Source: Phytobacter diazotrophicus
GTDB taxonomy: Bacteria > Pseudomonadota > Gammaproteobacteria > Enterobacterales > Enterobacteriaceae
Length of the DNA stretch: 64,000 bases
Direction: 5' to 3'
Assembly (NCBI GenBank): GCA_004346725.1
Contig: SMDE01000002.1
Coordinates: 248,001-312,000 of the forward strand
The notes below the pieces were generated by a model. It did no database searches. It was not told the origin of the DNA and saw only the letters and a program-made list of their open reading frames with translations. Position numbers and translations under genes: made by a program. Shown here in pieces: positions 3 to 47,529 of this stretch (positions are counted from its first letter, which is position 1; every line of letters begins with the position of its first letter).

Positions 3-188
3 CATTCCAGCCTGTATCTCAAAGACGACGGGTTGAAAGAGGCGGGATTTGAAACCGGGCGCAGCGTGACCGTGAAGATCTCGCAGGGGTGCATTGTGAT
101 GATGGCGGACTGTAACGAGGTGCAGGAGTTGCGCGAGCAGCTTTATCAGGCTAAAGAGGGGGTAGGATGTGCTGGTTTAGTGGGCTGA
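3..188 (+). CDS. symE: SymE-like toxin, C-terminal part (5' end outside window)
   Basis: The reading frame is open from the window edge to the TGA at 186-188 and gives about 61 residues. It includes a stretch of the type LYLKDDGLKEAGF followed by ETGRSVTVKIS and a GCIVMMAD strand. This is the SymE/AbrB-fold pattern seen in type I toxin-antitoxin SymE proteins, which in E. coli act on RNA or nucleoids under SOS control. The start, promoter and any antisense SymR RNA lie outside the window. SymE-like genes are often found beside rhs loci, and an rhs locus follows here. A bidirectional terminator lies directly downstream. The frame is seen directly; the family call is from memory of the motif, and activity is unknown. 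Confidence 0.6.
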   Translation, partial: HSSLYLKDDGLKEAGFETGRSVTVKISQGCIVMMADCNEVQELREQLYQAKEGVGCAGLVG

Positions 189-204
189 ACGGGAATAAAT
201 AATA

Positions 205-243
205 AAAAGCCGGGAAGATACGATATCTCCCCGGCTTATTTTT
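205..243. terminator. Bidirectional intrinsic terminator
   Basis: AAGCCGGG at 207-214 pairs with CCCGGCTT at 230-237. An inner AGATA/TATCT stem (216-220 with 224-228) closes a CGA loop. An A run precedes the stem and a T-rich run follows it, so the element can end both the plus-strand symE-like transcript and the minus-strand rhs-immunity transcript. Confidence 0.75.
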
Positions 244-655
244 ATTTAATAATATCTAAAGCAATTACTGCTGCTTCATGGATATCACCATCATCTGATG
301 CTAATGATATATTCAATCCATTAATTAGTCTTTTATCAGGAAATGAAGCTGCAAGTTGAGTTACCCAATATCTGACGCCTTTAGCTGTAAGAGGGTTTTC
401 AAGTATATTTGAAATAGATATTACAACATCGTCAATATCATATTCATAAAAAACATCCTCAACTAATTGATATACACCCCAACCATCCCCATCTCCATAT
501 GATTGCATAAATAGCGGTATAGCCTCTTTAGCTGGATTTTCAAGAAAATATTTCCTAACATCATCATATTTATTAATAAGCTCCTGTGTCAGGAGTTGAT
601 CCGATGGCATCGGCTGATGTTCTAGCAAAAATTGTAACGCTTCATCTTTAGTCAT
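242..655 (-). CDS. Putative immunity protein for the Rhs toxin
   Basis: A 137-residue acidic, mainly helical protein with no signal peptide, so probably cytoplasmic. It starts 2 bases after the rhs stop codon; ATG at 655 is chosen because GGAG lies 8 bases upstream, whereas an upstream in-frame ATG at 679 would overlap rhs by 22 bases and has no good ribosome site. The C-terminal half looks like HEAT-type helical repeats (…RYWVTQLAASF… and …DIHEAAVIALDII). The gene is clearly more AT-rich than the rhs core. Location directly behind a toxin-tipped Rhs gene and low GC are the usual marks of a cognate immunity gene. I cannot assign an Imm family with certainty. Confidence 0.65.
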   Translation of the reverse strand: MTKDEALQFLLEHQPMPSDQLLTQELINKYDDVRKYFLENPAKEAIPLFMQSYGDGDGWGVYQLVEDVFYEYDIDDVVISISNILENPLTAKGVRYWVTQLAASFPDKRLINGLNISLASDDGDIHEAAVIALDIIK

Positions 656-657
656 AT

Positions 658-3600
658 TTACATCTCCAGCGTTTTCCATAGCTCTTTATTCTGACGAATT
701 AACTCATTCAATTGTCTGTTCACTATATCTTTGTCGTAACCTGCATTCCTAAGAATTTTTCGCAGATCCACAATATCCCTTGCCAAATACTCACGGTTAG
801 TTAACCCAGGAACCATAGGCTTTTTAAAAGTCCATGTTAACTCATGAAGATCTTTCCGTAAGTTAATAGTAATGCCTCTACTATGTGTTGTAGGGCTGGC
901 AGCATTTTGAATTGCATGATGAGGAGTATGTGTTGGATTAAGACCAGATCTAAGGTTGCCTCCTCGTACCTGACCATATGTGCCAACATATAAATCTTCG
1001 CCTTGTTTGGCTAAACCACATTTTAGACCAAGCGGGTCGATCCATGACAGAGCATTCGGCGCATACGCATAAAGGTTTATCCCCCCCGCCAGCCCTATCG
1101 GGTCCTGCTGGGTGAACCTGCCGCTATCCGGGTCGTAATAACGGAACAAATTGTAGTGCAACCCGGTCTCCCGATCCAGGTATTGCCCCTGCATACGCAG
1201 GTTCTGCGCATAGCCCGTCTCCTGCGGTATCGACTCGTGCAACAGTTTACCCCACGCGCTGTTCTGCCCTTCCCAGCGGATATGTCCTTCACGGTCCGTC
1301 ATCCGTTCCGGCGTACCGTTTGGCTGACAGTGGAACCAGAAGATATCCGGATCCTTCGTGCCATCGATACGCGCCAGCGGTTCATAACTTTCCGCGTCGC
1401 TATAGACATAAGTCAGGGGCACATCGTCGTGAATTTCCTGCAACAGGCGAAAACCTTCCCACAGAAAACGTGTCGTCACCTGCTTTCCTACCGGCCTGCC
1501 CCCCAGCGTCTGCTGGCGTGTTTTGCTGATACGCCGGCCGAGCGGGTCATAGCGGAAACTGACCTGCGTTTGTGGTTTGTTGCGATCCCTCGGGACGGCC
1601 ACCACATCGGTTAACCGGTGCTCGCCGTCGTAACGATAGTGCCAGCGCGTCTGACCGTTGTCTTTTTCGGTGGTCCGCCCATGAATGTCATAGCTCCACT
1701 GAATGCCATTTAAACGGGTGAGACGGTTATGACGAACAGACTGCTGCAGGCTGTTATCCAGCGGGTTACCCGCCGCATCCCAGCGCCATTGCTCTTTTCC
1801 GGGGGACGTGCCGTCCTGTTCCAGCAGACGCCCGGCGCTGTCATATTTCCAGTTACACCAGTTGAACGGATCATTATCACGCTCTTCGCGCACCGGGTTG
1901 TTGCGGTAGTCGTAATCCCAGCGGCGTGACCAGCGTGCGGGTGCCGGGCGCTGCGCATTGCCGGTGAACACATCCCGGCGATGGATGCGTCCGAGACGAT
2001 CGTATTCATTGCGGCTTGTCAGCAAGCCCTGCGTACGACCGACTTCCCGGTGTAACTCATCGCGGGTAAAGTCGCTTATCGGCAGATTATCGAGAGCCAG
2101 GCTCAGCAGATGCCCGCTTCCGTAATAGAAATATTTCAGATGACGACCGTCGGGTAACTCCACCGATGTACGGTTGTTCAGCGCATCATAAGTCCAGCCC
2201 AGCCTGCCGTTTTCACCCTCTTCACTGATAACACGTCCCAACGCGTCATAGGTAAAGATCAGCTCCTGTTCAGCTTCCTGACTCCATACGTCATCACCCA
2301 GTGGGGGATGTAACGCCACTCGCGTAACCTGCCCATTCGCAGAGTAGTGATAACGGGTCTGTCCTTCCGGCGTGCTGCGGGCAAGCAGTTGACCCGCCTT
2401 GCCCCAGCGAAATGCATGCGTTAAAGCCTGTGAATGCCCGGCGGCGAAAGTACGACGCACAGTGCGTCGGCAGGCATCATATTCATACTGTGTTGCGACA
2501 CCGTCCAGCCCTGTTTCAGCAAGCAGCAGCGAATCCGCACCCCACTCAAAGTGGTACGCTTCCCCGTTTTCATTTTGTAATGCCGTTAATCTGTCGCGGC
2601 TGTCCCAGCGACGGCGCACCTCTTCCCCTAGCGCGTTACGGGTTGCCACCAGCCGGCCTGCGTCATCCCAGCTAAACTCGTGGCGCTTGCCGTCAGGGGT
2701 AATATGGTATTCCGGTAGTCCACGTGAGTTCCAGCCGATAGACTCCTGCCAGCCCTCCGCCCGCTCCAGTTGCAGTGGGCGACCTGCGGCATCATAGTGA
2801 TAGCGGGTTTCTTCACCGTCCGGCGCTTTCACCGACTGCAACCAACCGAGCGGGTAAAAGCGGTAACGGGTGATACGCCCCGAGCAGTCCGTCTCGCGGA
2901 TAATCTGCCCGGCCTCGTTATACTCCTGGCGACGCGTATTGCCTGCCGCATCCACCTCTTCCACCACCTGGCCAAAAGCGTCGCGCTTGAGCAATGTGCT
3001 CTGCCCCAATGGATCGACGATGCGCGCCAGCCCGTGGTGCTCATCATAATAAAAACGGGTGGTGGCGCCATCGGCCATGGTGATAGCCGTCGGCAGCGCG
3101 CGCTGCACCAGCCACTGGGTCGTCTGAATATTGCCGTCCGGATCGATTTCCTGGATACGGTTGCCCATGTCATCGTAGACAAAGGTCGTGGCATGGCCGA
3201 GGGGATCAACGCGCCGGGTCAGTTGCTCGTCGTCATTCCACTCGAATTCCCAGCGTTCACCACGTTCATCGACAAATGCGGTGATTAAAGCCTGCGCATT
3301 CCAGTAGTGTTGACGCTTGTGTCCGTCATACTGTTCAACGGTGGTTAATCCCGCGGCCAGATCGTAGGTGAAGCGGCAGCCATCTCCGCTACTGGTACGG
3401 TTTTCCACGACTCGCCAGTGGTCAAATTTCTGCCAGCGATACTCACTCTCCAGCCCGCCAGGCATACGGTGCCAGACCATGAGTCTGTCATCGTTATAAC
3501 GAAATTCACGCGTCACCACGCCCGTCGCATCTTCGACAGCAGCCAGTTGACCACGATGATCATAGCGCCAGCGTGTCAGCAGCCAGGATTGCTGACCATC

Positions 3601-5013
3601 CGAATGGCGGGCCTCGGTAACCCGGGTCGGGAAACGTTCATCGCCATAAAACAGCGAGACATCAATGGCACAGGGAGCATCATGAATACGCACCAACCGC
3701 CCATGCTCATCCCAGCCGGTTTCCAGCATGTTGCCGTACTCATCGCTGATCGATGCCAGTCGCAATATTGATGGGTCAGAGCGTGTTGGTTTGAACAGTC
3801 GCCACACAGCCCCATCGTCATCGGCAATAGCAACATCACCCTGCTCGTTACGGCGGATGATTAACCCTTCACTGATGCTGTAAAGCGCTTCGTTAATGGC
3901 AGGCAGCGTAAAGGTGAGCTCACGCCCGGTGTCGTCAAACCAGGTGGCGTTATCGCCTTCCCGTTGTAAGTAGCCGTCGAAAGCGGTGGCCCAGCCCAGG
4001 CCAAAAAGGCCTTCGCGGCGGGTAAGGCTGTTGTAACTACGTTGCCAGACCAGTGGAAAGCGCCCTGGCAAGCTAAAGTCCTGTTCTGCCTCATCGTTCA
4101 GGACTTTCACGCCGGTTGCAGCATGAACCGGATGTGATGACCCAAAGACGGCGTTAATCGCCATATCCGTCAGCATGCCCCCGGCGGCGGAAGCCAGCGC
4201 ACAAGGCATTGATTTGAGGATGGTACCGAAACGTCCTCGGAAAAGGGCTGTCGCCGCCATAATGACCGCCAGGCCCGGAAACTTGCCGCTTTTAATATCC
4301 CGGACGGTGAGTGTTTCACCGCCAATGATGACATTGGGTGAGACCTCTTCTGAGATGGTGGCTTCACAGGTGGTTCGGTCTTTGGCGCGTGCGGCGGGTT
4401 GGTTATTGATGAAGACGCTTTTTGACCCCTCCGCCAGATACTGCTGTGGTGAGTGTTTCTCGCACTTCACCTTGTCTTCTTCCAGCGCCGTGGTGCCTTC
4501 GGCAGCGGATGCAACCGGCGGTTGCCACATGTTGCTGCCAAACTGTGCGGCCATCGACAGCAGCATGCCGCCATAATCGGCAAAACTTTCCGGTGGCTGC
4601 GGTTCCGGTGGCGGTGGCGTACCGGCAGGCGTGAGCATACCGGCGGCGCGCGCAGCGGGCAGCTTATTGGTCAGGACGTTGTGCGAACCGTTGTCAATTT
4701 TTCCGGCGGGAGAGGGAGGGAAAATCCAGTCCCCCAGTTTATTGGCCGCATTGGAGATATCATCCGCCTTACCCAGCACGTTGGTAAGAATCCCCCCGAT
4801 AATGCCGCCAAGCACGCAACTGGAACCGACAGCAGCCAGCCCTGCCGCCGCCAGACCCGCCCCGGCAAAAGGTGCCGCAACCGCCGCGATCCCGGCTACC
4901 GCCGACCCAATCGCAGCATAAGCGACTCCTTCGGCCACAATACTGGTGATATCAGCGAAGATACTTGAATGGATGATATCGTCACCCTTACGGGCTGCGT
5001 GCTTGTCACTCAT
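658..5013 (-). CDS. rhs: T6SS prePAAR-Rhs effector with C-terminal toxin tip
   Basis: A 1451-residue polymorphic toxin. The N terminus has a prePAAR motif (AARKGDDIIH, about residues 6-15), then a long Ala/Gly-rich hydrophobic region (about 22-85) expected to form membrane helices, then PAAR-type segments with two NxLPAARA/NQPAARA strands. YD/Rhs repeats build the toxin-enclosing shell and end at the conserved DPIGLAGG…WIDPLGL junction near residue 1330. The last about 121 residues are the toxin: a TPHHAIQ motif and a later DLHELTW strand suggest an HNH/endonuclease VII-like nuclease, but this is tentative. Composition turns AT-rich exactly after DPLGL, which shows a swapped tip. It starts 3 bases after the Eag chaperone gene, so the two are probably translationally coupled. 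It is probably carried on a VgrG spike. Confidence 0.9.
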   Translation of the reverse strand: MSDKHAARKGDDIIHSSIFADITSIVAEGVAYAAIGSAVAGIAAVAAPFAGAGLAAAGLAAVGSSCVLGGIIGGILTNVLGKADDISNAANKLGDWIFPPSPAGKIDNGSHNVLTNKLPAARAAGMLTPAGTPPPPEPQPPESFADYGGMLLSMAAQFGSNMWQPPVASAAEGTTALEEDKVKCEKHSPQQYLAEGSKSVFINNQPAARAKDRTTCEATISEEVSPNVIIGGETLTVRDIKSGKFPGLAVIMAATALFRGRFGTILKSMPCALASAAGGMLTDMAINAVFGSSHPVHAATGVKVLNDEAEQDFSLPGRFPLVWQRSYNSLTRREGLFGLGWATAFDGYLQREGDNATWFDDTGRELTFTLPAINEALYSISEGLIIRRNEQGDVAIADDDGAVWRLFKPTRSDPSILRLASISDEYGNMLETGWDEHGRLVRIHDAPCAIDVSLFYGDERFPTRVTEARHSDGQQSWLLTRWRYDHRGQLAAVEDATGVVTREFRYNDDRLMVWHRMPGGLESEYRWQKFDHWRVVENRTSSGDGCRFTYDLAAGLTTVEQYDGHKRQHYWNAQALITAFVDERGERWEFEWNDDEQLTRRVDPLGHATTFVYDDMGNRIQEIDPDGNIQTTQWLVQRALPTAITMADGATTRFYYDEHHGLARIVDPLGQSTLLKRDAFGQVVEEVDAAGNTRRQEYNEAGQIIRETDCSGRITRYRFYPLGWLQSVKAPDGEETRYHYDAAGRPLQLERAEGWQESIGWNSRGLPEYHITPDGKRHEFSWDDAGRLVATRNALGEEVRRRWDSRDRLTALQNENGEAYHFEWGADSLLLAETGLDGVATQYEYDACRRTVRRTFAAGHSQALTHAFRWGKAGQLLARSTPEGQTRYHYSANGQVTRVALHPPLGDDVWSQEAEQELIFTYDALGRVISEEGENGRLGWTYDALNNRTSVELPDGRHLKYFYYGSGHLLSLALDNLPISDFTRDELHREVGRTQGLLTSRNEYDRLGRIHRRDVFTGNAQRPAPARWSRRWDYDYRNNPVREERDNDPFNWCNWKYDSAGRLLEQDGTSPGKEQWRWDAAGNPLDNSLQQSVRHNRLTRLNGIQWSYDIHGRTTEKDNGQTRWHYRYDGEHRLTDVVAVPRDRNKPQTQVSFRYDPLGRRISKTRQQTLGGRPVGKQVTTRFLWEGFRLLQEIHDDVPLTYVYSDAESYEPLARIDGTKDPDIFWFHCQPNGTPERMTDREGHIRWEGQNSAWGKLLHESIPQETGYAQNLRMQGQYLDRETGLHYNLFRYYDPDSGRFTQQDPIGLAGGINLYAYAPNALSWIDPLGLKCGLAKQGEDLYVGTYGQVRGGNLRSGLNPTHTPHHAIQNAASPTTHSRGITINLRKDLHELTWTFKKPMVPGLTNREYLARDIVDLRKILRNAGYDKDIVNRQLNELIRQNKELWKTLEM

Positions 5014-5016
5014 CGC

Positions 5017-5457
5017 TTATACATTCCGATTGTTATTCAGCGTCAGACTTTGTTTGAGGGCATTCCAGTGTTCTGCATCCTGTTCGGTAAAAGGACGCAA
5101 TGCAGAGAAGGTAAAAATAAGCAGCATGGGTTTATCAACCGCCTGCATCGCCAGTTGCTTCTGCCAGATGCGGGTGTCAGCGCGTAAGAAGGCGGTTTCA
5201 ACCTCAACGGCACGAATATTTTGTTGTGGGCCGACAAGCACGCGGGTAAACGCGCTCTGCTGCACTTCGCCCATTTGTGCGCGCAGTTGATCCCACTGGC
5301 GATGAAATTCTTTCTCGGCATCGCTGCCTTCGGGAATGGGGCCACGGCTGACAACAACCGATAACCCACTTTCGTCATCGCGCAGAAGCGTCATGCTGGT
5401 GTCCTGCCATGCGGCCGGGAAAAGCTGAAAGGAACCTTCCTGGAGGTGATATTTCAT
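5017..5457 (-). CDS. Eag-type (DcrB/DUF1795) chaperone for the Rhs effector
   Basis: A 146-residue protein opening MKYHLQEGSFQLF and containing the W-D-T-S-M-T-L-L strand typical of DUF1795/DcrB-fold Eag proteins. Eag chaperones hold the hydrophobic transmembrane helices of prePAAR effectors in solution before T6SS loading. The adjacent Rhs protein has exactly that prePAAR and hydrophobic N terminus. ATG at 5457 is chosen because AAGG lies 6-7 bases upstream; the longer frame from 5520 adds a segment unlike the family. It is cytoplasmic, with no signal peptide. Confidence 0.85.
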   Translation of the reverse strand: MKYHLQEGSFQLFPAAWQDTSMTLLRDDESGLSVVVSRGPIPEGSDAEKEFHRQWDQLRAQMGEVQQSAFTRVLVGPQQNIRAVEVETAFLRADTRIWQKQLAMQAVDKPMLLIFTFSALRPFTEQDAEHWNALKQSLTLNNNRNV

Positions 5458-5614
5458 CATTTGCCTTTTAATGAAAATAATTCGCCTGCAATCGCTGAAA
5501 TGAATGCAAGGGGCATTCACTTAAAAACAGCAATCCAGATAAAAAGAGGGATGTTAAACGTGCATAAACAACAAAAAGATTTCAGGCTGCGCAGATGTCA
5601 GCCTGAATCACACG

Positions 5615-6127
5615 TTATTTCTCGCGGGTAATCACCACACTGCTTAAACAGTCCGGATTCGTTTCGGCGAAACTAAAGGTGACTTCCTGGCCGTCGCCAA
5701 TTGCAGCGGTATGACTGGTGACTTCATGGACCGAATGTCCACGCGGCGTATCGGTAATGTCCATTTTCGCATAGTGCTGACGTACCTCGCCCAGCGAGAC
5801 ACATTGCCCTGCATAATCGAACGCAAACAACACTTTACTGTTTGGTTTTTTATTCACCCGCAGGTCGAATGCCGACAGCGTTGCACCGCTGGCCAGTTTT
5901 ACTGCATCACTGGTATAGAAGACAAAATTATCGTTTTGTGACACCTCAGTAACCGGCAAGGCGAAGCGGTTAATGGTATTCACGTTAACGGTTTTAACAG
6001 ATGTGCTGAGATGAGAAATAAATTGCCAGAGATCTTCGTTTTGCATTTTTGCCTCGACAACTCCTGTCATGAGTAAATTAGCGAATATGATGGCACAGGC
6101 TTTATTTAGCCGGGTAATTTTTGTCAT
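5615..6127 (-). CDS. Secreted protein, probable immunity to the VgrG metallopeptidase
   Basis: A 170-residue protein with a standard Sec signal peptide (positive start, hydrophobic core, VEA cleavage site near residue 26) and a mature beta-rich part with two widely spaced cysteines (in the QCVS and DCLS segments). It is therefore periplasmic. The gene overlaps the 3' end of the toxin-bearing vgrG by 26 bases, so the two are co-transcribed. No known family is recognised. Periplasmic immunity suits a metallopeptidase toxin delivered to the periplasm, as known for Pseudomonas VgrG2b. The immunity role is inferred from position and export signal only. A slightly longer start at 6139 is possible. 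Confidence 0.6.
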   Translation of the reverse strand: MTKITRLNKACAIIFANLLMTGVVEAKMQNEDLWQFISHLSTSVKTVNVNTINRFALPVTEVSQNDNFVFYTSDAVKLASGATLSAFDLRVNKKPNSKVLFAFDYAGQCVSLGEVRQHYAKMDITDTPRGHSVHEVTSHTAAIGDGQEVTFSFAETNPDCLSSVVITREK

Positions 6128-8666
6128 ACCATCCTCCATAATAATCTTCGTAGTCCTGGCCGGTCACCGATGTCTGTTCGCCTCGTCCGAAGATTCGGCC
6201 GATTTTCGACTGCGCTTCCGTTTCTGTCATCTTTCCGCTCTTAACTGAATCGTAAATCGAATTATAGCTTTTTTGGTTGGCCGGATTGCCCGAAATGCCG
6301 ATATCCGGCCCCCCGTTGGCGAGGATTTCTCGCTGAACTTTAATATTGTTCAGTGTAGCCGCCCCCTCATCACTTAATTTACTGTTGAGGTAAGCATCAC
6401 GGGAAGAGAAATCATCTTTGGGCGTATACATTGCGTGGCCGCTCTCATGCGACAGCAGTTGTACCGTTCGTGCCGGGTCGTTCAACGCGCCCTTATCTAC
6501 CGTGATCGTTTGGGTCTTACGGTTAGCCATCGTCCCCCATCCCTCATTACCCTCTTTTAGGGTCCAGCCATCGTCCTTCAGTTTTTTCAGATCATTCGTT
6601 AGCGTCGGGGATTTTGATGCCAGTTGGTCAACATCATCACCGAACCCCGTCGTTACGGCGGGTTTGGAGACCGGTTTAGCACTATTTTTGGGGGCGCCAG
6701 CCGCCGCACCGGGCACCGCCCCTCCCGCTTTATTTTCCTTTCCTGGCGTGAAATATTCTTCAACCGCCTTATCGATATCTCCTTTCAGGCGTTCACCCGG
6801 CGCGTCGACCCCGGCTTTGCCGTCATCCGCATTCAGGTACAACTTCCCTTTGGTCGTGATATGCCCGTCGCCTTTTACAAAAAAGTTAAAGTCATTACCA
6901 ATCAGGTTGATCGTACCGTTAGCCAGCAGTTCGATAGCGCTTTCGCCGGATGCCAGTAGTAGCCGTGTACCCGAACTGACCACATACTGTTCAGATACCG
7001 CCTCCAGCTTATCTTTGCCCGTTAATACCAGAGACTTCCCTTTGGTGACCAGTGTCTGGTTGGTCTCCACACGCAATAGCTCGTTTTTACGGACATAGTG
7101 GCTGTTATTGCCGTTGATGGTGCTCGTGGCGTCATTCTTAACGTTGGTGTCCATATTCCGTTCGGCCTGGATCCATACCTGCTCCTCCCCCGCTTTATCT
7201 TCAAAACGCAGGGCGTTGGCGGTGTCAGAAGAACCATCTTTCGAACGGCTGAGGAACCCCATCTGCGTGGCGGCGGCGGGGAGCGCCCACGGCGGCATGC
7301 TGGCTTCGTTATAGACGCGCCCGGTGATGATCGGCCTGTCCGGGTCACCGTTAATAAAATCGACCACCACTTCATCACCGACGCGTGGCACCTGTACGCC
7401 GCCGAAACCCTGCCCCGCCCAGGCGCTGGAGACACGCACCCAACAGGAGCTGGTATCGTCGCCCTTCGCCAGTCTGTCCCAGTGGAACTTCACCTTCACC
7501 CGGCCATAGCGATCGGTCCAGATGCTCTCCCCCTGCGGGCCGACGACTCTTGCGGTCTGTGGCCCATAGGTACGCGGCCAGGCTGATTTTTGCGCCGGGC
7601 GGTATGTAACGGTGGAGGGGATCACCGTGAAATCAATGCGGTGCATCGTTTGCGAGCCACTACCGCTGGCATAATTGTTCTCTTCCAGCCAGTAGTTAGC
7701 CTCGGTGGTCAGGTATTCCGCGTTATCGCTGAAAAAGGGGGCGTTGTAGAGGGTAAACGTGTTACCCGGCGCGATACCGAGTGCCGTGGCGCTACCATGA
7801 ATCTGTTGATGCTCCACCTGCCAGCGCTCCTGGCGGATGCGGGCATAGAAATCCGCATGATCATGTTCAACAAAGCGCCCCGGCCAGTCGTACACATCAA
7901 TACTGCCCGGTTGTGGTGAGACCGGGTTCTGCCGGGCCTGAAACAGCCAGGCATTCGGCTTGCGGAAATCATAATCGTCCAGGCTGTAGATCCCCGGCGT
8001 CACGCTGTCGGTCAGCGCCCACTGGCTGATCCCCTCTTCATCCGTACTGCCACCGGACGGTGTCACGTGATAAGGAATGGTTTCGTAACCGGCAAACGGC
8101 TGATGCTGGGTCGCCGCATCGGTTAGCACCAGAACATGCCGCTCCGCCTCGTGGCGGAAGAAGTAGCTGATGCCCTCCAGTTCCATCAGGCGGCTGATAA
8201 AATCGAAGCTGCTCTCCTGATACTGTACGCAGTAGTCCCAGACGCGATAGCTGCCGGTCAGCTTGTCTTCGACATTGACCTGGTTTTCAGAAAGCAGCGT
8301 TTTGACGATTTGCGGTACCGTCTGCCCCTGGAAAATACGCAGGTTACGGTCACGCTGCATTGGCCATAAGTCGGATTCAACGCTGAGTTGATAGACCGCG
8401 TAGCGGGTGCCGGACAGCTCCACGGCGCTCACCGCAACGCGGGTCACTTTGCCATTAAAGTAGCGCGGCGATGTTATATCCTGCGTCGGGACAGTCACAG
8501 TGACGGCCTTTCCCAGTAGCTGGCTGCGATCCATGCGCGCATCGGTGCCCAGCAGCGTCAGGCCAAGTGCATAAGGTTCTGACAGCGCTTCACGCCCTGA
8601 CAGTTTCCAGAACAGCAGCCCTTCGACCGGAAGCTGCACGGTAATACGGTTGAGCATAAGGTTCAT
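6102..8666 (-). CDS. vgrG: VgrG (TssI) with C-terminal HExxH metallopeptidase domain
   Basis: An 854-residue evolved VgrG. Residues 1 to about 600 form the gp27-like and gp5-like spike base (GREALSEPYALGLTLLG, WTDRYGRVKVKFHWD, GGVQVPRVGDEVVVDF), almost the same as the second VgrG in this window. A short beta-helix needle follows, then an Ala/Pro/Lys-rich linker (about 645-680), then a domain of about 170 residues with the zinc-protease motif HESGH at 740-744 and a possible third metal ligand Glu in SDEGA near residue 767. The extension is absent from the other VgrG. It should reach the target cell at the tip of the Hcp tube. The overlapping downstream gene encodes a secreted protein that is probably its immunity. 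The substrate is unknown. Confidence 0.9.
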   Translation of the reverse strand: MNLMLNRITVQLPVEGLLFWKLSGREALSEPYALGLTLLGTDARMDRSQLLGKAVTVTVPTQDITSPRYFNGKVTRVAVSAVELSGTRYAVYQLSVESDLWPMQRDRNLRIFQGQTVPQIVKTLLSENQVNVEDKLTGSYRVWDYCVQYQESSFDFISRLMELEGISYFFRHEAERHVLVLTDAATQHQPFAGYETIPYHVTPSGGSTDEEGISQWALTDSVTPGIYSLDDYDFRKPNAWLFQARQNPVSPQPGSIDVYDWPGRFVEHDHADFYARIRQERWQVEHQQIHGSATALGIAPGNTFTLYNAPFFSDNAEYLTTEANYWLEENNYASGSGSQTMHRIDFTVIPSTVTYRPAQKSAWPRTYGPQTARVVGPQGESIWTDRYGRVKVKFHWDRLAKGDDTSSCWVRVSSAWAGQGFGGVQVPRVGDEVVVDFINGDPDRPIITGRVYNEASMPPWALPAAATQMGFLSRSKDGSSDTANALRFEDKAGEEQVWIQAERNMDTNVKNDATSTINGNNSHYVRKNELLRVETNQTLVTKGKSLVLTGKDKLEAVSEQYVVSSGTRLLLASGESAIELLANGTINLIGNDFNFFVKGDGHITTKGKLYLNADDGKAGVDAPGERLKGDIDKAVEEYFTPGKENKAGGAVPGAAAGAPKNSAKPVSKPAVTTGFGDDVDQLASKSPTLTNDLKKLKDDGWTLKEGNEGWGTMANRKTQTITVDKGALNDPARTVQLLSHESGHAMYTPKDDFSSRDAYLNSKLSDEGAATLNNIKVQREILANGGPDIGISGNPANQKSYNSIYDSVKSGKMTETEAQSKIGRIFGRGEQTSVTGQDYEDYYGGWYDKNYPAK

Positions 8667-8896
8667 TCCGTTAAAAGTAGCAACGCGCTGAAATCGTCAG
8701 CGCAAATGCCATTCGATAGAGAAAATCCACCCGCTAAGATTGCGGTATTTTTACTAAATTTTGATGTCTGGTGAGGTAAATTGTATTTGCCACTCTGTAC
8801 TGGCCGTTATATTTATCGCTCTGTATCGGGCACAATATAAGACCGTGTTCCTAGCTATCTGCCGAGGTTATTATCAACCTCAGTCATGCCACTATT

Positions 8897-10003
8897 TTAT
8901 TCCGTCGGCGTATCCTCATCCGGCGCCTGGTCAAATAACGCCGCGGCCATTGAGGCAATGCGGTCATGCTGAACCAGCTTCTCTTTCCATTCCTGCGGAA
9001 TCCCCGACCAGCCATATAAAGCACCGGCAAGTTGTCCGGCCGTCGCCGCCACGCTGTCGGCATCATCGGCAAGGTTCGCCGCCAGCAAGATGGCATCACG
9101 GAAACTGTCGGTGTGCCATACCGCCCACATGGCCGCTTCCAGCGTATCGATAACATAGCCACTGGAGCGGATCTGGTCGCGGCTTTTTTCTTTATATTCA
9201 CCGGCGTTGATGATCAGCACCCGCGGCTCTAACGGCATCATTTGCGGGGAAAATACACGTTCTTTGTCGTACCCATTAATCAGCAGAAGCAGTAAGCAAC
9301 TCAGATAATGTGCGGAACTTACAGCCTCGGTCGCACAATGGGTGGCCTGACTTTGAATTTTCGCGTTATAGAATGTCTGAGCGAAATTGCGACGAAAATA
9401 GATCGGTACAGGCGCTAATCGAATAATGGATGCATTTCCCGCTGTTTCCGGGGCCGTATTACCAAACCAGTCCGCTCCGTTAATCTCATATTGTTCCAGG
9501 GCATAACGGGTCGCATTGCCAATATCAAAACAGACACCGTTAACGCTGTTATAGCCCTCGCGATACCACTTCACCAGCTTGTCCCTGAAACATTGCCTGC
9601 TGGCATATTTGCACTCCAGCATTGTTTCAGCCAGACACAGGGCCATAGAGGTGTCGTCGGTCCACTCGCCGGGTTTCAGGCGAAATGGCCCACCACCCAC
9701 CATATCCGTCACGGCGCGATGGTCACGAGGCATAAATTCCAGCGTGGTGCCCACGGCATCGCCCACGGCGAGCCCGACAAGCGCGCCTATGGCCCTGTCG
9801 CGACAGATATTCAGCGGCTTGACCTGATCAGGCGTGTCATACCATTTTGTCGACGCGGCTTCTTGCGGGTCATCTACCAGTGGATGTGCAATGTAGTCAT
9901 ACAGCATGCGGTGCTGCGTCCGCGCGTTAGTAAACGGAATATAGTGCTCATACTGTTTTGCATAACGCTCTATTTCCCGAATATCAGAATGTAAATCGAT
10001 CAC
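8897..10003 (-). CDS. ADP-ribosylglycohydrolase (DraG/Tri1-like) in the T6SS cargo region
   Basis: A 368-residue protein with a complete ARH active site: GLAVGDAVG near residue 77, the metal-binding WTDDTSM segment near 115, and ADDADSVAATAGQ near 312. About 68 residues precede the catalytic fold. The family removes ADP-ribose from proteins. In Serratia the T6SS immunity protein Tri1 is such an enzyme with an N-terminal plug, and it neutralises the Tre1 ADP-ribosyltransferase toxin. Here no ADP-ribosyltransferase is visible nearby. The gene lies between a membrane protein plus PAAR-like gene and vgrG, so it may be an immunity enzyme that lost its toxin, a broad-range protector, or an effector. 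GTG at 10003 has AAGGGA at suitable spacing. Confidence 0.85.
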   Translation of the reverse strand: MIDLHSDIREIERYAKQYEHYIPFTNARTQHRMLYDYIAHPLVDDPQEAASTKWYDTPDQVKPLNICRDRAIGALVGLAVGDAVGTTLEFMPRDHRAVTDMVGGGPFRLKPGEWTDDTSMALCLAETMLECKYASRQCFRDKLVKWYREGYNSVNGVCFDIGNATRYALEQYEINGADWFGNTAPETAGNASIIRLAPVPIYFRRNFAQTFYNAKIQSQATHCATEAVSSAHYLSCLLLLLINGYDKERVFSPQMMPLEPRVLIINAGEYKEKSRDQIRSSGYVIDTLEAAMWAVWHTDSFRDAILLAANLADDADSVAATAGQLAGALYGWSGIPQEWKEKLVQHDRIASMAAALFDQAPDEDTPTE

Positions 10004-16369: not shown

Positions 16370-18643
16370 TTATATAAACATAAAAACACCAGCAGCATGA
16401 AGGCTCATCGCTAGTGAATCAAACTCAACCCCGGCAACGCGGGTTTTTATACCATTATCAATATGGATGGTCACTGGATTATTTTCCATCTTCATTCCGG
16501 TAAGACCAAAGCTCAAGGGCGTCACTGAAATATTTAGGCCTTTAATATCCACACCAGCACCGGTGATTCCTAAAGAGGCGCCGATATAGCTTTCCTGATG
16601 ACCATGAGCATTTGTCACCCAATACGGAGTATCAATATTCACTTCTGTATCAGAATGTATTGTGATTTTATTCGGAGATTGGATCAGCGTTTCTCCTGAT
16701 GCAATGGTCTGAGTCCATCCCCCATTGATTGTGGTGTTGACCTCACCCGTTATCTCATTATGCTGACCACCAGAGCTAACAATTAAACGATCGCCATTAC
16801 GAATTTCAGTATTACGCCCACCTGTCAGGATAAACGTCTCTTGTTTTCCATCTTTTATGGTTGTGGACTGATTCCCTTGCGCTATTTTTGTAGTCTGATC
16901 GCCAGTGATTTCATTTAACTCACCCTTGCTCAGAATAGTCAGATGACGTCCTTCTTTGATATTGATAACTTCACTATTATTGAAGTTTTTTTGCTCAACA
17001 TCATCCACCGTGGTCGTCCTTTTCTTCCGGTAGTAGAACGTGGCATCGCCCGTCACATCATCTTTCTGCTCTTTTTTGATCGTCGTCGTCCGGTTACCGT
17101 CGATATTGACCGTCTGATCATTCTCGACCGACACCATCATGTCTTTCTCGGAATGCATCTGCACCGATTCATTACCCGGACTGTCTTCAAAAAACAGGAA
17201 GCTGGCATTATCGACGCTGCCATCTTTACTACGGGTCATAAAGCCCATCCGGGTGGCATCACCAGGCAGGTCCCACGGCGGCATACTGGCTTCGTTATAA
17301 ACACGCCCGGTGATAATCGGCCTGTCGGGGTCACCGTTAATAAAGTCGACCACCACTTCATCACCAACACGTGGGATCTGCACGCCGCCAAAGCCTTGCC
17401 CGGCCCAGGCGCTGGAAACACGCACCCAGCAAGAGCTGGTATCGTCGCCTTTTGCCTGCCTGTCCCAGTGAAACTTCACTTTCACCCGGCCATAGCGATC
17501 GGTCCAGATACTCTCTCCCTGCGGACCGACGACTTTTGCGGTCTGTGGCCCATAGGTACGCGGCCAGGCCGTTTTTTGCGCCGGACGGTATGTGACCGAA
17601 GAAGGAATGACGGTGAAATCAATGCGGTGCATTGTTTGCGAGCTCCCCCCGCTGGCGTAGGCATTCTCTTCCAGCCAGTAGTTAGCTTCAGTGGTCAGGT
17701 ATTCCGCGTTATCGCTGAAAAAGGGGGCATTATAGAGGGTAAAAGTATGCCCAGGGGTGATGCCCAGCGCGGTGGCGCTGCCCTGTATCTGCTGGTGCTC
17801 AACCTGCCAGCGTTCCTGATGAATACGGGCATAGAATTCACCGTGTCCATGATCAACAAAGCGCCCCGGCCAGTCATAAACATTAATGCTGCCGGGCTCT
17901 GGCGAGTTTGGATTCTGGCGCGCCTGAAACAGCCAGGCATTCGGCTTACGGAAATCGTAATCGTCCAGGCTGTAGATCCCCGGCGTCACGCTGTCGGTCA
18001 GCGCCCACTGGCTGATCCCCTCTTCGTCGGTACTGCCGCCGGACGGTGTCACGTGATAAGGAATGGATTCATAACCGGCAAACGGCTGATGCTGGCTGGC
18101 GGCATCAGTCAACACCATGACGTGGCGCCCGGATTCGTGGCGGAAGAAGTAGCTGATACCCTCCAGTTCCATCAGGCGGCTGATAAAGTCGAAGCTGCTC
18201 TCCTGATACTGTACGCAGTAATCCCAGACGCGGTAACTCTCGCTCAGCTTGTCTTCAACGTTAACCTTGCTTTCAGAGAGCAGCGTTTTGACGATTTGCG
18301 GTACCGTCTGCCCCTGGAAAATACGCAGGTTACGGTCGCGTTGCATTGGCCATAAGTCGGATTCAACACTGAGCTGATAGACCGCGTAGCGGGTGCCGGA
18401 CAACTCCACGGCGCTCACCGCCACACGGGTCACTTTGCCGTTAAAGTAGCGCGGCGATGTCATATCCTGCGTCGGGACAGTCACGGTGACGGATTTGCCC
18501 AGCAACTGGCTGCGGTCTATGCGCGCATCGGTGCCCAGCAACGTCAGGCCAAGTGCATAAGGTTCTGACAGCGCTTCACGTCCTGACAGTTTCCAGAACA
18601 ATAGCCCGTCTACGGGGAGCTGTACGGTAATACGATTGAGCAT
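16370..18643 (-). CDS. vgrG: VgrG (TssI) spike protein without toxin domain
   Basis: 757 residues. The first about 550 are almost identical to the other VgrG in the window (gp27/gp5-like base, including the WTDRYGRVKVKFHWD strand). The tail is a long beta-helix rich in T/N/G (for example TTIKDGKQETF and the NEITG repeats), ending with a hydrophobic strand AAGVFMFI; no catalytic motif is seen. ATG at 18643 corresponds to the second Met of the sister protein; a TTG at 18685 is possible but less likely. It is the structural spike, probably loaded by the nearby DUF4150 or Rhs tips. Confidence 0.92.
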   Translation of the reverse strand: MLNRITVQLPVDGLLFWKLSGREALSEPYALGLTLLGTDARIDRSQLLGKSVTVTVPTQDMTSPRYFNGKVTRVAVSAVELSGTRYAVYQLSVESDLWPMQRDRNLRIFQGQTVPQIVKTLLSESKVNVEDKLSESYRVWDYCVQYQESSFDFISRLMELEGISYFFRHESGRHVMVLTDAASQHQPFAGYESIPYHVTPSGGSTDEEGISQWALTDSVTPGIYSLDDYDFRKPNAWLFQARQNPNSPEPGSINVYDWPGRFVDHGHGEFYARIHQERWQVEHQQIQGSATALGITPGHTFTLYNAPFFSDNAEYLTTEANYWLEENAYASGGSSQTMHRIDFTVIPSSVTYRPAQKTAWPRTYGPQTAKVVGPQGESIWTDRYGRVKVKFHWDRQAKGDDTSSCWVRVSSAWAGQGFGGVQIPRVGDEVVVDFINGDPDRPIITGRVYNEASMPPWDLPGDATRMGFMTRSKDGSVDNASFLFFEDSPGNESVQMHSEKDMMVSVENDQTVNIDGNRTTTIKKEQKDDVTGDATFYYRKKRTTTVDDVEQKNFNNSEVINIKEGRHLTILSKGELNEITGDQTTKIAQGNQSTTIKDGKQETFILTGGRNTEIRNGDRLIVSSGGQHNEITGEVNTTINGGWTQTIASGETLIQSPNKITIHSDTEVNIDTPYWVTNAHGHQESYIGASLGITGAGVDIKGLNISVTPLSFGLTGMKMENNPVTIHIDNGIKTRVAGVEFDSLAMSLHAAGVFMFI

Positions 18644-18854
18644 AAGGTTAATTCCGTTACAAAAATCATGAAGAACCAGGTGCAATCATTAAATTATCGT
18701 GCCCGAACGACAAATATAATCAACCAGCAGTCAGTGAGGATATTACAAAAACGGGCAATAACGTCCGTTTTCTCTATTCATTGATATCGAGGAAGGGTGC
18801 CAGCCATTTCTTTTCAGAAAATTCCTGGCAATATACAGTTTAGCGAAACAGCAA

Positions 18855-46443: not shown

Positions 46444-46938
46444 TTAGTTGAGAATCCACGTACCTGAGTTGCTGTTTTTACACGCTTTGCTGCTACCATC
46501 AACCGACACACAGGTCTGTTTCTGGCGGGCTCTCAGGCGCGGGGTTTGTTTGCGTACCGTTTCGTCGTACAGCTCGCTTTTCACTACAGCACGCATCGGA
46601 ACATAACCAATCAACTCTTCCTGACCTTCATCGGCCAGAGCCATCCAGAAGTGTTCAACCTGGCCCAGTACAATGTAGGTTTTACCGGTTTGCAGTTGAC
46701 GGATCATTTTGCCGCCGTAATCCGGCGTGCTCATCAGCGACGCAGGATAGAGTGCACGGTAGTTCTCTTTGATGGGTTGAAACTCTTTCGGTGGTTTTAC
46801 CGCATAGCGGTGGGTAAGCGTGGTGCCATTCACCTCGCTGGTCACAATCGTGTCGTCTGTGGGCGTCGCCGGCGGTGGTGCTTTACATGCGGAGAGTGCA
46901 AAAACAAACAGAAGGGCTAATACATTTCGCATTTTCAT
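46444..46938 (-). CDS. SH3-like lipoprotein heading the T6SS operon
   Basis: 164 residues. A lipoprotein signal (LLFVFALSACK) gives an outer-membrane Cys near residue 18 with Lys at +2, followed by a Pro/Thr linker. The rest has SH3-like strands (KTYIVLGQVEHFWMALADEG) and a Cys pair at the end. It is the promoter-proximal gene of the tssJ-K-L-M operon. Lipoproteins of this kind occur beside tssJ in other loci and may help anchor the complex to the wall, but the role here is inferred. Confidence 0.8.
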   Translation of the reverse strand: MKMRNVLALLFVFALSACKAPPPATPTDDTIVTSEVNGTTLTHRYAVKPPKEFQPIKENYRALYPASLMSTPDYGGKMIRQLQTGKTYIVLGQVEHFWMALADEGQEELIGYVPMRAVVKSELYDETVRKQTPRLRARQKQTCVSVDGSSKACKNSNSGTWILN

Positions 46939-47529
46939 AACGGTGATTTCCATTGCAAATATATTACTGTGTGGAACTGGAACGTTTAGGAAAGAACTTT
47001 TTCATTCTTTCAAAATAAGTCTCTCCCTTACCCTGCAAACCGATCAAATAATGAATTAAAGGCATAGCTACCGCACGAGCCGTTGCACCAGCAAGGCAGC
47101 GAAATATGACTTCATCAATGATAATCGTGTCTAAATTTTACAGACGAGACGATACAATTCAATATCATCTCAGCCTTAATGAAAAATGAATATTTAAAAT
47201 TTATCTAAATTAAGATAATTCTCAAGAAATAATTTCACTTAGGTCTTCTGATAGTAGAAATCATCGCCAGGCAGAGCTTAGTTCCCCTTCAAATGAAGAT
47301 CAAACCACTGTATTTAATGATTTTATCGATTATTTATGACAAAAACATATCCTGCTGATTCGTTATCAGATAAATCCTAAAAAGATAATTTTGCATATTT
47401 TACCCCTCATTATTAGTAGCCAAAAAGCCACATTTACTGTGCGGAATATTGAATGACGCCTGATAAGTCAAGACCCGTCAGGTCGATAAAGTGAAATATC
47501 AAAACCGTGCAAAGTGAATATTATTCACC

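Follow-up and report, generated by a model that had tools for sequence, protein, structure and literature searches.

An Rhs gene at one end of a 64,000-nucleotide stretch of Phytobacter diazotrophicus DNA (GCA_004346725.1, contig SMDE01000002.1, positions 248,001 to 312,000; this whole stretch is called the window) most likely encodes a type VI secretion system (T6SS) effector that ends in an exchangeable module of a C-terminal toxin and its immunity gene (CT-I). We read the toxin tip as a metal-dependent DNase of the His-Me finger type and the module as having moved as a unit by recombination in the Rhs core, and we give this reading a probability of roughly 0.78. The C-terminal displacement of Rhs toxins is already well known, and the exchange at this locus is well supported and ordinary in principle. 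What is new is the toxin and immunity clade, which had no significant match in Pfam, NCBIfam, PADLOC or PDB in our searches. The positions given by the original prediction, an earlier note made from the letters alone, were correct; the immunity and Rhs open reading frames (ORFs) are both on the minus strand. The parts of the locus are as follows.

658-5013, minus strand: Rhs gene, an ORF for a PAAR/Rhs protein of 1451 amino acids (aa).
1042-5013, minus strand: delivery part of the Rhs gene, with a prePAAR-like motif (AARKGDDIIH), PAAR, Rhs/YD repeats and Rhs core, from Pfam, NCBIfam and the motif itself.
1024-1104, minus strand: DPIGL-x17-DPLGL stretch holding D1304 and D1326, a predicted aspartyl autoprotease pair by analogy with D1324/D1346 of RhsA.
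658-1023, minus strand: toxin tip, Rhs residues 1331-1451 (121 aa), a predicted His-Me finger (HNH/EndoVII) nuclease, from the ORF, its relatives, alignments and a Tox-SHH profile match of the HH region.
916-921, minus strand: codons of H1365-H1366 in the TPHH motif, the predicted catalytic and metal-binding histidines, HH being aligned in 12 of 12 rows.
844-846, minus strand: codon of H1390 in LHELTW, the predicted third histidine, 23 residues past HH and aligned in 12 of 12 rows.
242-679, minus strand: immunity gene (rhsI) for a predicted all-alpha, HEAT-like protein of 145 aa, a distant Imm30 relative through intermediates, from the ORF, linkage, a structure model and a chain of profiles.
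207-237, minus strand: terminator-like hairpin of 14 pairs, 3' of the immunity gene, from a hairpin scan.

Comparison with relatives confirmed an exchange of tip and immunity gene at this locus, as judged from sequence. Two congeners, G001 and G002, were compared with the window. G001 matched window positions 1069-9000 with 95.4% identity over 7932 positions, and past 1069 its Rhs gene, which encodes 1454 aa in all, ran into a different tip followed by a different downstream ORF of 121 aa. A tblastn search of the G001 locus with the window tip and immunity protein gave no match, and behind the replaced part lay a stretch 82% similar to window positions 164-248, the terminator region. In G002 the match was limited to the final 1.2 kb of the gene for Rhs (window 1054-2266, 95.8%), in an interrupted frame (locus L028, 5200-7869), and no tip-like or immunity-like sequence followed the matched Rhs end. 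The window tip was found in neither of the two congeners. The G001 locus supplies the alternative tip that the original prediction had proposed to look for in related strains, and it makes a natural experiment in Rhs tip exchange: two congeners whose delivery genes are 95% identical carry different warheads.

The converse arrangement, the same tip on other cores, was also found. Among 392 genomes of the family, 5 had the tip, counting the window's own genome, and among 394 of the order 3 had it, a count that takes in the window's own genome and one distant relative; a search of the genome collection gave 4 loci, overlapping those from the family and order searches. Five other genomes had close relatives of the tip, 65-90% identical. 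Two of these tips end full-length Rhs genes that have different cores and encode 1510 and 1521 aa (L031, L033), and the other three belong to Rhs fragments or orphans (L029, L032, L034). A homologous immunity gene followed the tip in all six close-family loci (the window and the five others), so that the exchanged unit is the tip together with its immunity gene. In L029 an orphan tip, 90% identical and in an open frame, is followed by a broken immunity gene (8916-9461), in which about 110 bp form a partial tandem duplication containing stops. In Gilliamella (L034/L005) a stop stands just before the orphan tip, and one frame runs on into the immunity gene, a possible tip-immunity fusion. C-terminal displacement is marked by relatives in which one core ends in different toxin and immunity pairs, by joint inheritance of the two members of a pair, and by orphan copies elsewhere, all of which are seen here. 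The claim that this is a tip exchange was thus borne out from both directions; its edge, which had been placed at the DPLGL junction, needed correction. The nucleotide alignment to G001 ends at 1069, inside the DPIGL-x17-DPLGL stretch and upstream of the DPLGL codons (1038-1024), similarity of the Rhs proteins persists as far as DPLGL, and the crossover point may lie anywhere upstream within the shared core.

Among 30 sampled core ends the window tip was found on the window's own only, and one other locus (L076) carried a weak relative (27% identical, E 1e-6). The L076 tip, from genome G071, is of an AHH type (GLDAHHAGQ...VPKEGHT) and by eye resembles an Aeromonas plasmid ORF in L043; its toxin part had no NCBIfam match and no significant PDB match. 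The E. coli genomes searched lacked any near match to the cassette, and searches of plasmids and phages with the tip were negative at E 1e-5.

The original prediction had argued for exchange from base composition, and here the observation and the argument fared differently. The guanine-plus-cytosine content (GC) is 0.578 in the delivery part (1042-5013), 0.392 in the tip (658-1032), 0.338 in the immunity gene (242-679) and 0.515 in positions 1-241, and the GC of third codon positions falls from 0.627 in the core to 0.288 in the tip and 0.185 in the immunity gene. The AT-rich stretch was said to run through the immunity gene to the terminator, and the terminator-like hairpin lies at 237-207; a scan of positions 1-1200 for terminator-like hairpins gave 2 sites, against a mean of 0.8 (standard deviation 0.9) in shuffled sequence. 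The 800-bp stretch from position 242 has a GC of 0.365, and 0.73% of all 800-bp segments in the 64 kb, itself counted, are equally low. The maximum-likelihood change point of composition in 242-2500 is base 1026. The fall at the DPLGL junction is therefore real, but the word "exactly" is finer than composition resolves, since the interval within 3 log-likelihood units covers 941-1083.

A different explanation of the low GC is that it is a common property of Rhs tips and immunity genes, drawn from a shared AT-rich gene pool or weakly expressed, and no mark of a recent exchange here. We searched 149 genomes of the family for the core end, obtained matches in 55 and took 30 loci from the best, the window's own included; this sample is biased toward similar cores. 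The GC of the tip was below that of the preceding 600 bp in 29 of the 30 loci, the window among them (L077 was the exception), and the means were 0.58 for the core, 0.40 for the tip and 0.34 for the next 450 bp. Because the drop is this widespread, AT-richness at Rhs tips is a general rule that neither dates nor proves the exchange at this locus and by itself is no sign of recent transfer; we rejected composition as proof of exchange, and the compositional argument of the original prediction lacks specificity. As a replacement for exchange the explanation is possible but doubtful, given that it leaves the other tip on a 95% identical core in the congener unexplained. It can stand beside the exchange reading but not in its place.

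The second question is what the tip does. TPHHAIQ and LHELTW, which the original prediction had pointed out as weakly like HNH/endonuclease VII nucleases, are both present. Distant relatives of the tip, reached through the tip of L013 (34-37% identical), are Streptomyces HINT-type toxins, a Bacillus licheniformis LXG toxin, Aeromonas plasmid ORFs and a 533-codon ORF found in two copies in genome G1115. Viral contigs searched with the close-family alignment (A3), the L013 tip and the L040 tip gave no relative, and with P0001 they gave 8 LXG loci, 4 of which cover just the part before the toxin. In an alignment of 12 tips, which omits L037 (G834, E 1.4e-11), L038 (G794, E 0.004), the second G1115 copy (L036), L076 and the hits H2, H4, H7, H8, H86 and H87, the HH pair, a later H, one R, one L and one D are invariant. 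Nine of the 12 rows have 23 residues between HH and the third histidine, two have 32 and one has 28. The residue before HH is P in 9 rows, A in 2 and I in 1, and never S or G.

The closest described family is Tox-SHH (PF15652). We compared the profile of the 12 tips with four Tox-SHH sequences, among them the Pfam-confirmed L094 and, by tblastn with the L094 domain, L097 and L098 (L095 was dropped because its frame was broken). The score was 22.3, above all 100 column shuffles (maximum 15.9) and above the reversed profile (12.4). These results, that is the invariance of HH and H, the HH-x23-H spacing and the Tox-SHH match of the HH region, strengthen the HNH/EndoVII reading and make a His-Me finger nuclease the most likely prediction for the tip, short of proof.

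Several results weigh against this prediction. Those on the profile libraries and PDB, on the Tox-SHH match and on the tip model also favor the alternative that the tip is a toxin of other chemistry (an RNase, say, or no nuclease at all) and resembles a His-Me finger in its HH and H by chance. Neither the tip (Pfam, NCBIfam, PADLOC) nor its close relatives (Pfam, NCBIfam) had a significant match in the profile libraries, the lowest E values among the relatives being 0.07 in Pfam and 0.06 in NCBIfam. PDB chain searches with the tip family gave a best E of 0.074, which is not significant. The match to Tox-SHH spans 42 columns about HH and leaves the third histidine outside, at an hhalign probability of 7%, and against the L094 Tox-SHH domain alone hhalign gave 0.8% (P 0.07). 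The AlphaFold model of the tip (mean predicted local distance difference test, pLDDT, 44.7) was too poor for a ββα-fold call or a fold search. The position of what we take to be the canonical HNH Asn varies, the residue being absent in L013, and the open frame of L037, probably frame-damaged, reads CPPY at the HH position. Against the alternative stand the invariance of HH and H in all 12 aligned rows, the profile score above 100 of 100 shuffles, and two relatives of the tip with Imm30 neighbors. We consider a toxin of other chemistry unlikely.

Tox-SHH membership proper is not indicated: S or G before HH is absent, and the PF15652 model was not listed at E values up to 10 for 12 relatives (7 in A3 and five further), a search in which the HMMER filters drop most matches above 0.1. 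A search of the window's own genome for PF15652 with the family was likewise negative. The likeness to Tox-SHH, as in V2c of Agrobacterium tumefaciens, lies in the HH and later H, the T6SS setting and Imm30 as a listed partner; the family differs in having [SG]HH where the present tips have TPHH, AHH or IHH, and the similarity is confined to the HH region. In the part of the V2c report available to us (PMC10902643; this and the other papers cited below were available in part), H384 and H408 of this Tox-SHH DNase are the catalytic and metal-binding histidines chosen for mutation, and the gap between them, 23 residues, equals that between HH and H1390 in the window tip. Among the partly covered papers on Tox-SHH and HNH toxins, we found none on this tip family.

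The immunity protein gave a parallel result, in that it reaches a described family, apparently as a distant relative, only through intermediates. The tip relatives of Bacillus and G1115 adjoin proteins that pass the Pfam cut-off for Imm30 (PF15565), and Imm30 is among the partners of Tox-SHH listed by Zhang and colleagues in the part of their survey available (PMC3482391). The profile of the window immunity group scored 29.8 against the immunity proteins of L013, L040 and L037, and these in turn scored 25.5 against Imm30; in both comparisons none of 100 shuffles scored as high. The direct comparison of the window group with Imm30 tells against the relationship: its score of 15.3 was reached by 16 of 100 shuffles and is not significant. 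This shuffled comparison superseded an earlier direct hhalign run against a mixed Imm30 set (P 0.012). None of the 6 proteins in the immunity alignment (A2) had the Imm30 model listed at E values up to 10. We took as chance the Pfam matches of single immunity relatives to Antirestrict (E 0.0066) and HEAT_2 (E 0.032), and a cytochrome P450 entry in PDB (E 0.05). Thus the immunity protein is like Imm30 in its mostly helical make-up, in pairing with the same toxin clade (Bacillus, G1115) and in the profile link through intermediates, and differs in being unrecognized by the Pfam model and by direct profile comparison.

The model of the immunity protein was all-helical, with a mean pLDDT of 86.3 and a predicted template modeling score of 0.80. 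Foldseek gave no match to it at E ≤0.001. The best VIA-align Z score was 11.2, below the caution level of 13 for helical repeats, and most of the neighbors were HEAT/ARM/TOG-like repeats; in this model the HEAT/ARM-like neighbors indicate a general fold class or shared arrangement only.

It is about an even chance that the tip and its immunity protein represent a wide and unlisted clade in which His-Me finger toxins (TPHH...H...R..L..D..D) are paired with helical inhibitors of the Imm30 superfamily. If so, the same toxin domain would be found on Rhs proteins of Enterobacterales, on HINT-type toxins of Streptomyces plasmids and on LXG toxins of Bacillus, of the type VII secretion system type (a plasmid record, viral contigs), and a single toxin with its inhibitor would have been adapted to three or more delivery systems. 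In any case the pair is an additional toxin/immunity family, missed by the libraries searched, with three candidate histidines in the toxin.

The delivery side of the locus involves two more genes.

5017-5520, minus strand: DcrB-family gene (PF08786, E 1.9e-19), a probable Eag-type chaperone.
6102-8666, minus strand: VgrG-type gene whose C-terminal tail includes HESGH, the probable carrier, lying upstream of the Rhs gene, from the ORF and nucleotide similarity.

The Rhs protein carries the PAAR (PF05488), RHS repeat (PF05593) and RHS core (PF03527) domains, from Pfam and NCBIfam. Residues 6-15, AARKGDDIIH, presumably represent the prePAAR motif AARxxDxxxH, and we equate the DcrB-family protein with an Eag chaperone. 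The VgrG-type label of 6102-8666 is based on window positions 7198-8676, which have 87% nucleotide similarity to a Pfam-confirmed VgrG gene at 16370-18685. The window also contains genes for a ClpV-type AAA protein, TssG, TssF and an IcmF/TssM-type protein, and with VgrG these place the Rhs effector in a T6SS neighborhood. A prePAAR motif, PAAR, Rhs repeats, an adjacent DcrB/Eag-type gene, VgrG and T6SS genes together are what characterizes a class I prePAAR T6SS Rhs effector.

These features suggest how the system may work. The prePAAR/PAAR end, with the Eag-like chaperone, would load the Rhs protein on VgrG, and the Rhs shell would enclose the tip. By analogy with RhsA of Pseudomonas protegens, the aspartyl pair D1304/D1326 may cut after DPLGL (L1330) and free K1331-M1451, 121 residues. 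The T6SS would inject this toxin, which is predicted to act as a metal-dependent DNase using H1365, H1366 and H1390, and the helical product of the downstream gene, whose ORF overlaps the Rhs ORF by 22 bp, would bind and block it. RhsA, in the part of its description available (PMC8765631), is alike in having prePAAR, PAAR, an Eag chaperone and VgrG, and its dyad D1324/D1346 cuts at W1350; in RhsA and in the predicted cleavage here the two aspartates are 22 residues apart and the cut falls four residues past the second.

The tip and immunity gene would move as a unit through recombination in the conserved Rhs core, probably by a homologous route. The systems described in Salmonella (PMC3967940), Serratia Rhs1 (PMC10539506) and Snodgrassella (PMC5727410) are, in the parts of these papers available, alike in that a variable tip and adjacent immunity gene are exchanged behind a conserved core ending in DPxGL, with displaced copies kept as orphans as they are here. 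They differ in that the exchange here is seen between species and genera and not in an evolution experiment, and in that their toxins are unmatched to the present one. In Serratia, the natural Rhs exchange was replicated by engineering, according to the part of that paper available.

A site-specific exchange at the conserved GACCCGATAGGGCT stretch encoding DPIGL, instead of general homologous recombination, is very improbable. In its favor, some orphan copies regain similarity to the core at the DPIGL stretch after dissimilar sequence (not used as a count, some of these loci having been fetched by the same pattern), ATA is used in 25 of the 36 core ends with Ile there (41 distinct core ends), and codon variability at the DPIGL Gly, 1.05 bits, is lower than at five other conserved Gly positions (1.21-1.73). 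Against it, the codons for D, P and L in this motif vary no less than codons elsewhere in the core end, the 14-mer occurs in 6 of the 60 relatives searched, a set in which many may lack Rhs genes, and in Salmonella the evidence for recombination between main and orphan rhs genes extends over a shared stretch of 522 bp (PMC3967940, in the part available). A conserved recombination site at DPIGL is thus a weakly supported suggestion from sequence.

Some further observations concern the neighboring genes. The HESGH in the tail of the VgrG-type gene suggests a metallopeptidase effector, and a 174-aa ORF after this gene (5615-6139, minus strand; absent from the Pfam matches) may encode the immunity protein of the VgrG tail. 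The corresponding VgrG frame of the congener G001 is broken into two ORFs. The T6SS region has two VgrG-type genes, and between them lies a gene for an ADP-ribosylglycohydrolase (PF03747; 8897-10003, minus strand). Beyond the hairpin, convergent with the immunity gene, a SymE-type toxin gene (3-188, plus strand) is truncated by the start of the window. Stretches like it are found again at Rhs loci of G001 (L026, L027) and G389 (L029), as if SymE copies accompany Rhs cassettes, and in Erwinia two SymE-type genes adjoin a T6SS toxin locus, according to the part of that report available (PMC7764402). Outside the Rhs locus, the lowest GC in the window is found in 800-bp segments starting at 46649-47317 (0.324 at 47043), and a lipoprotein-like ORF lies there at 46444-46953.

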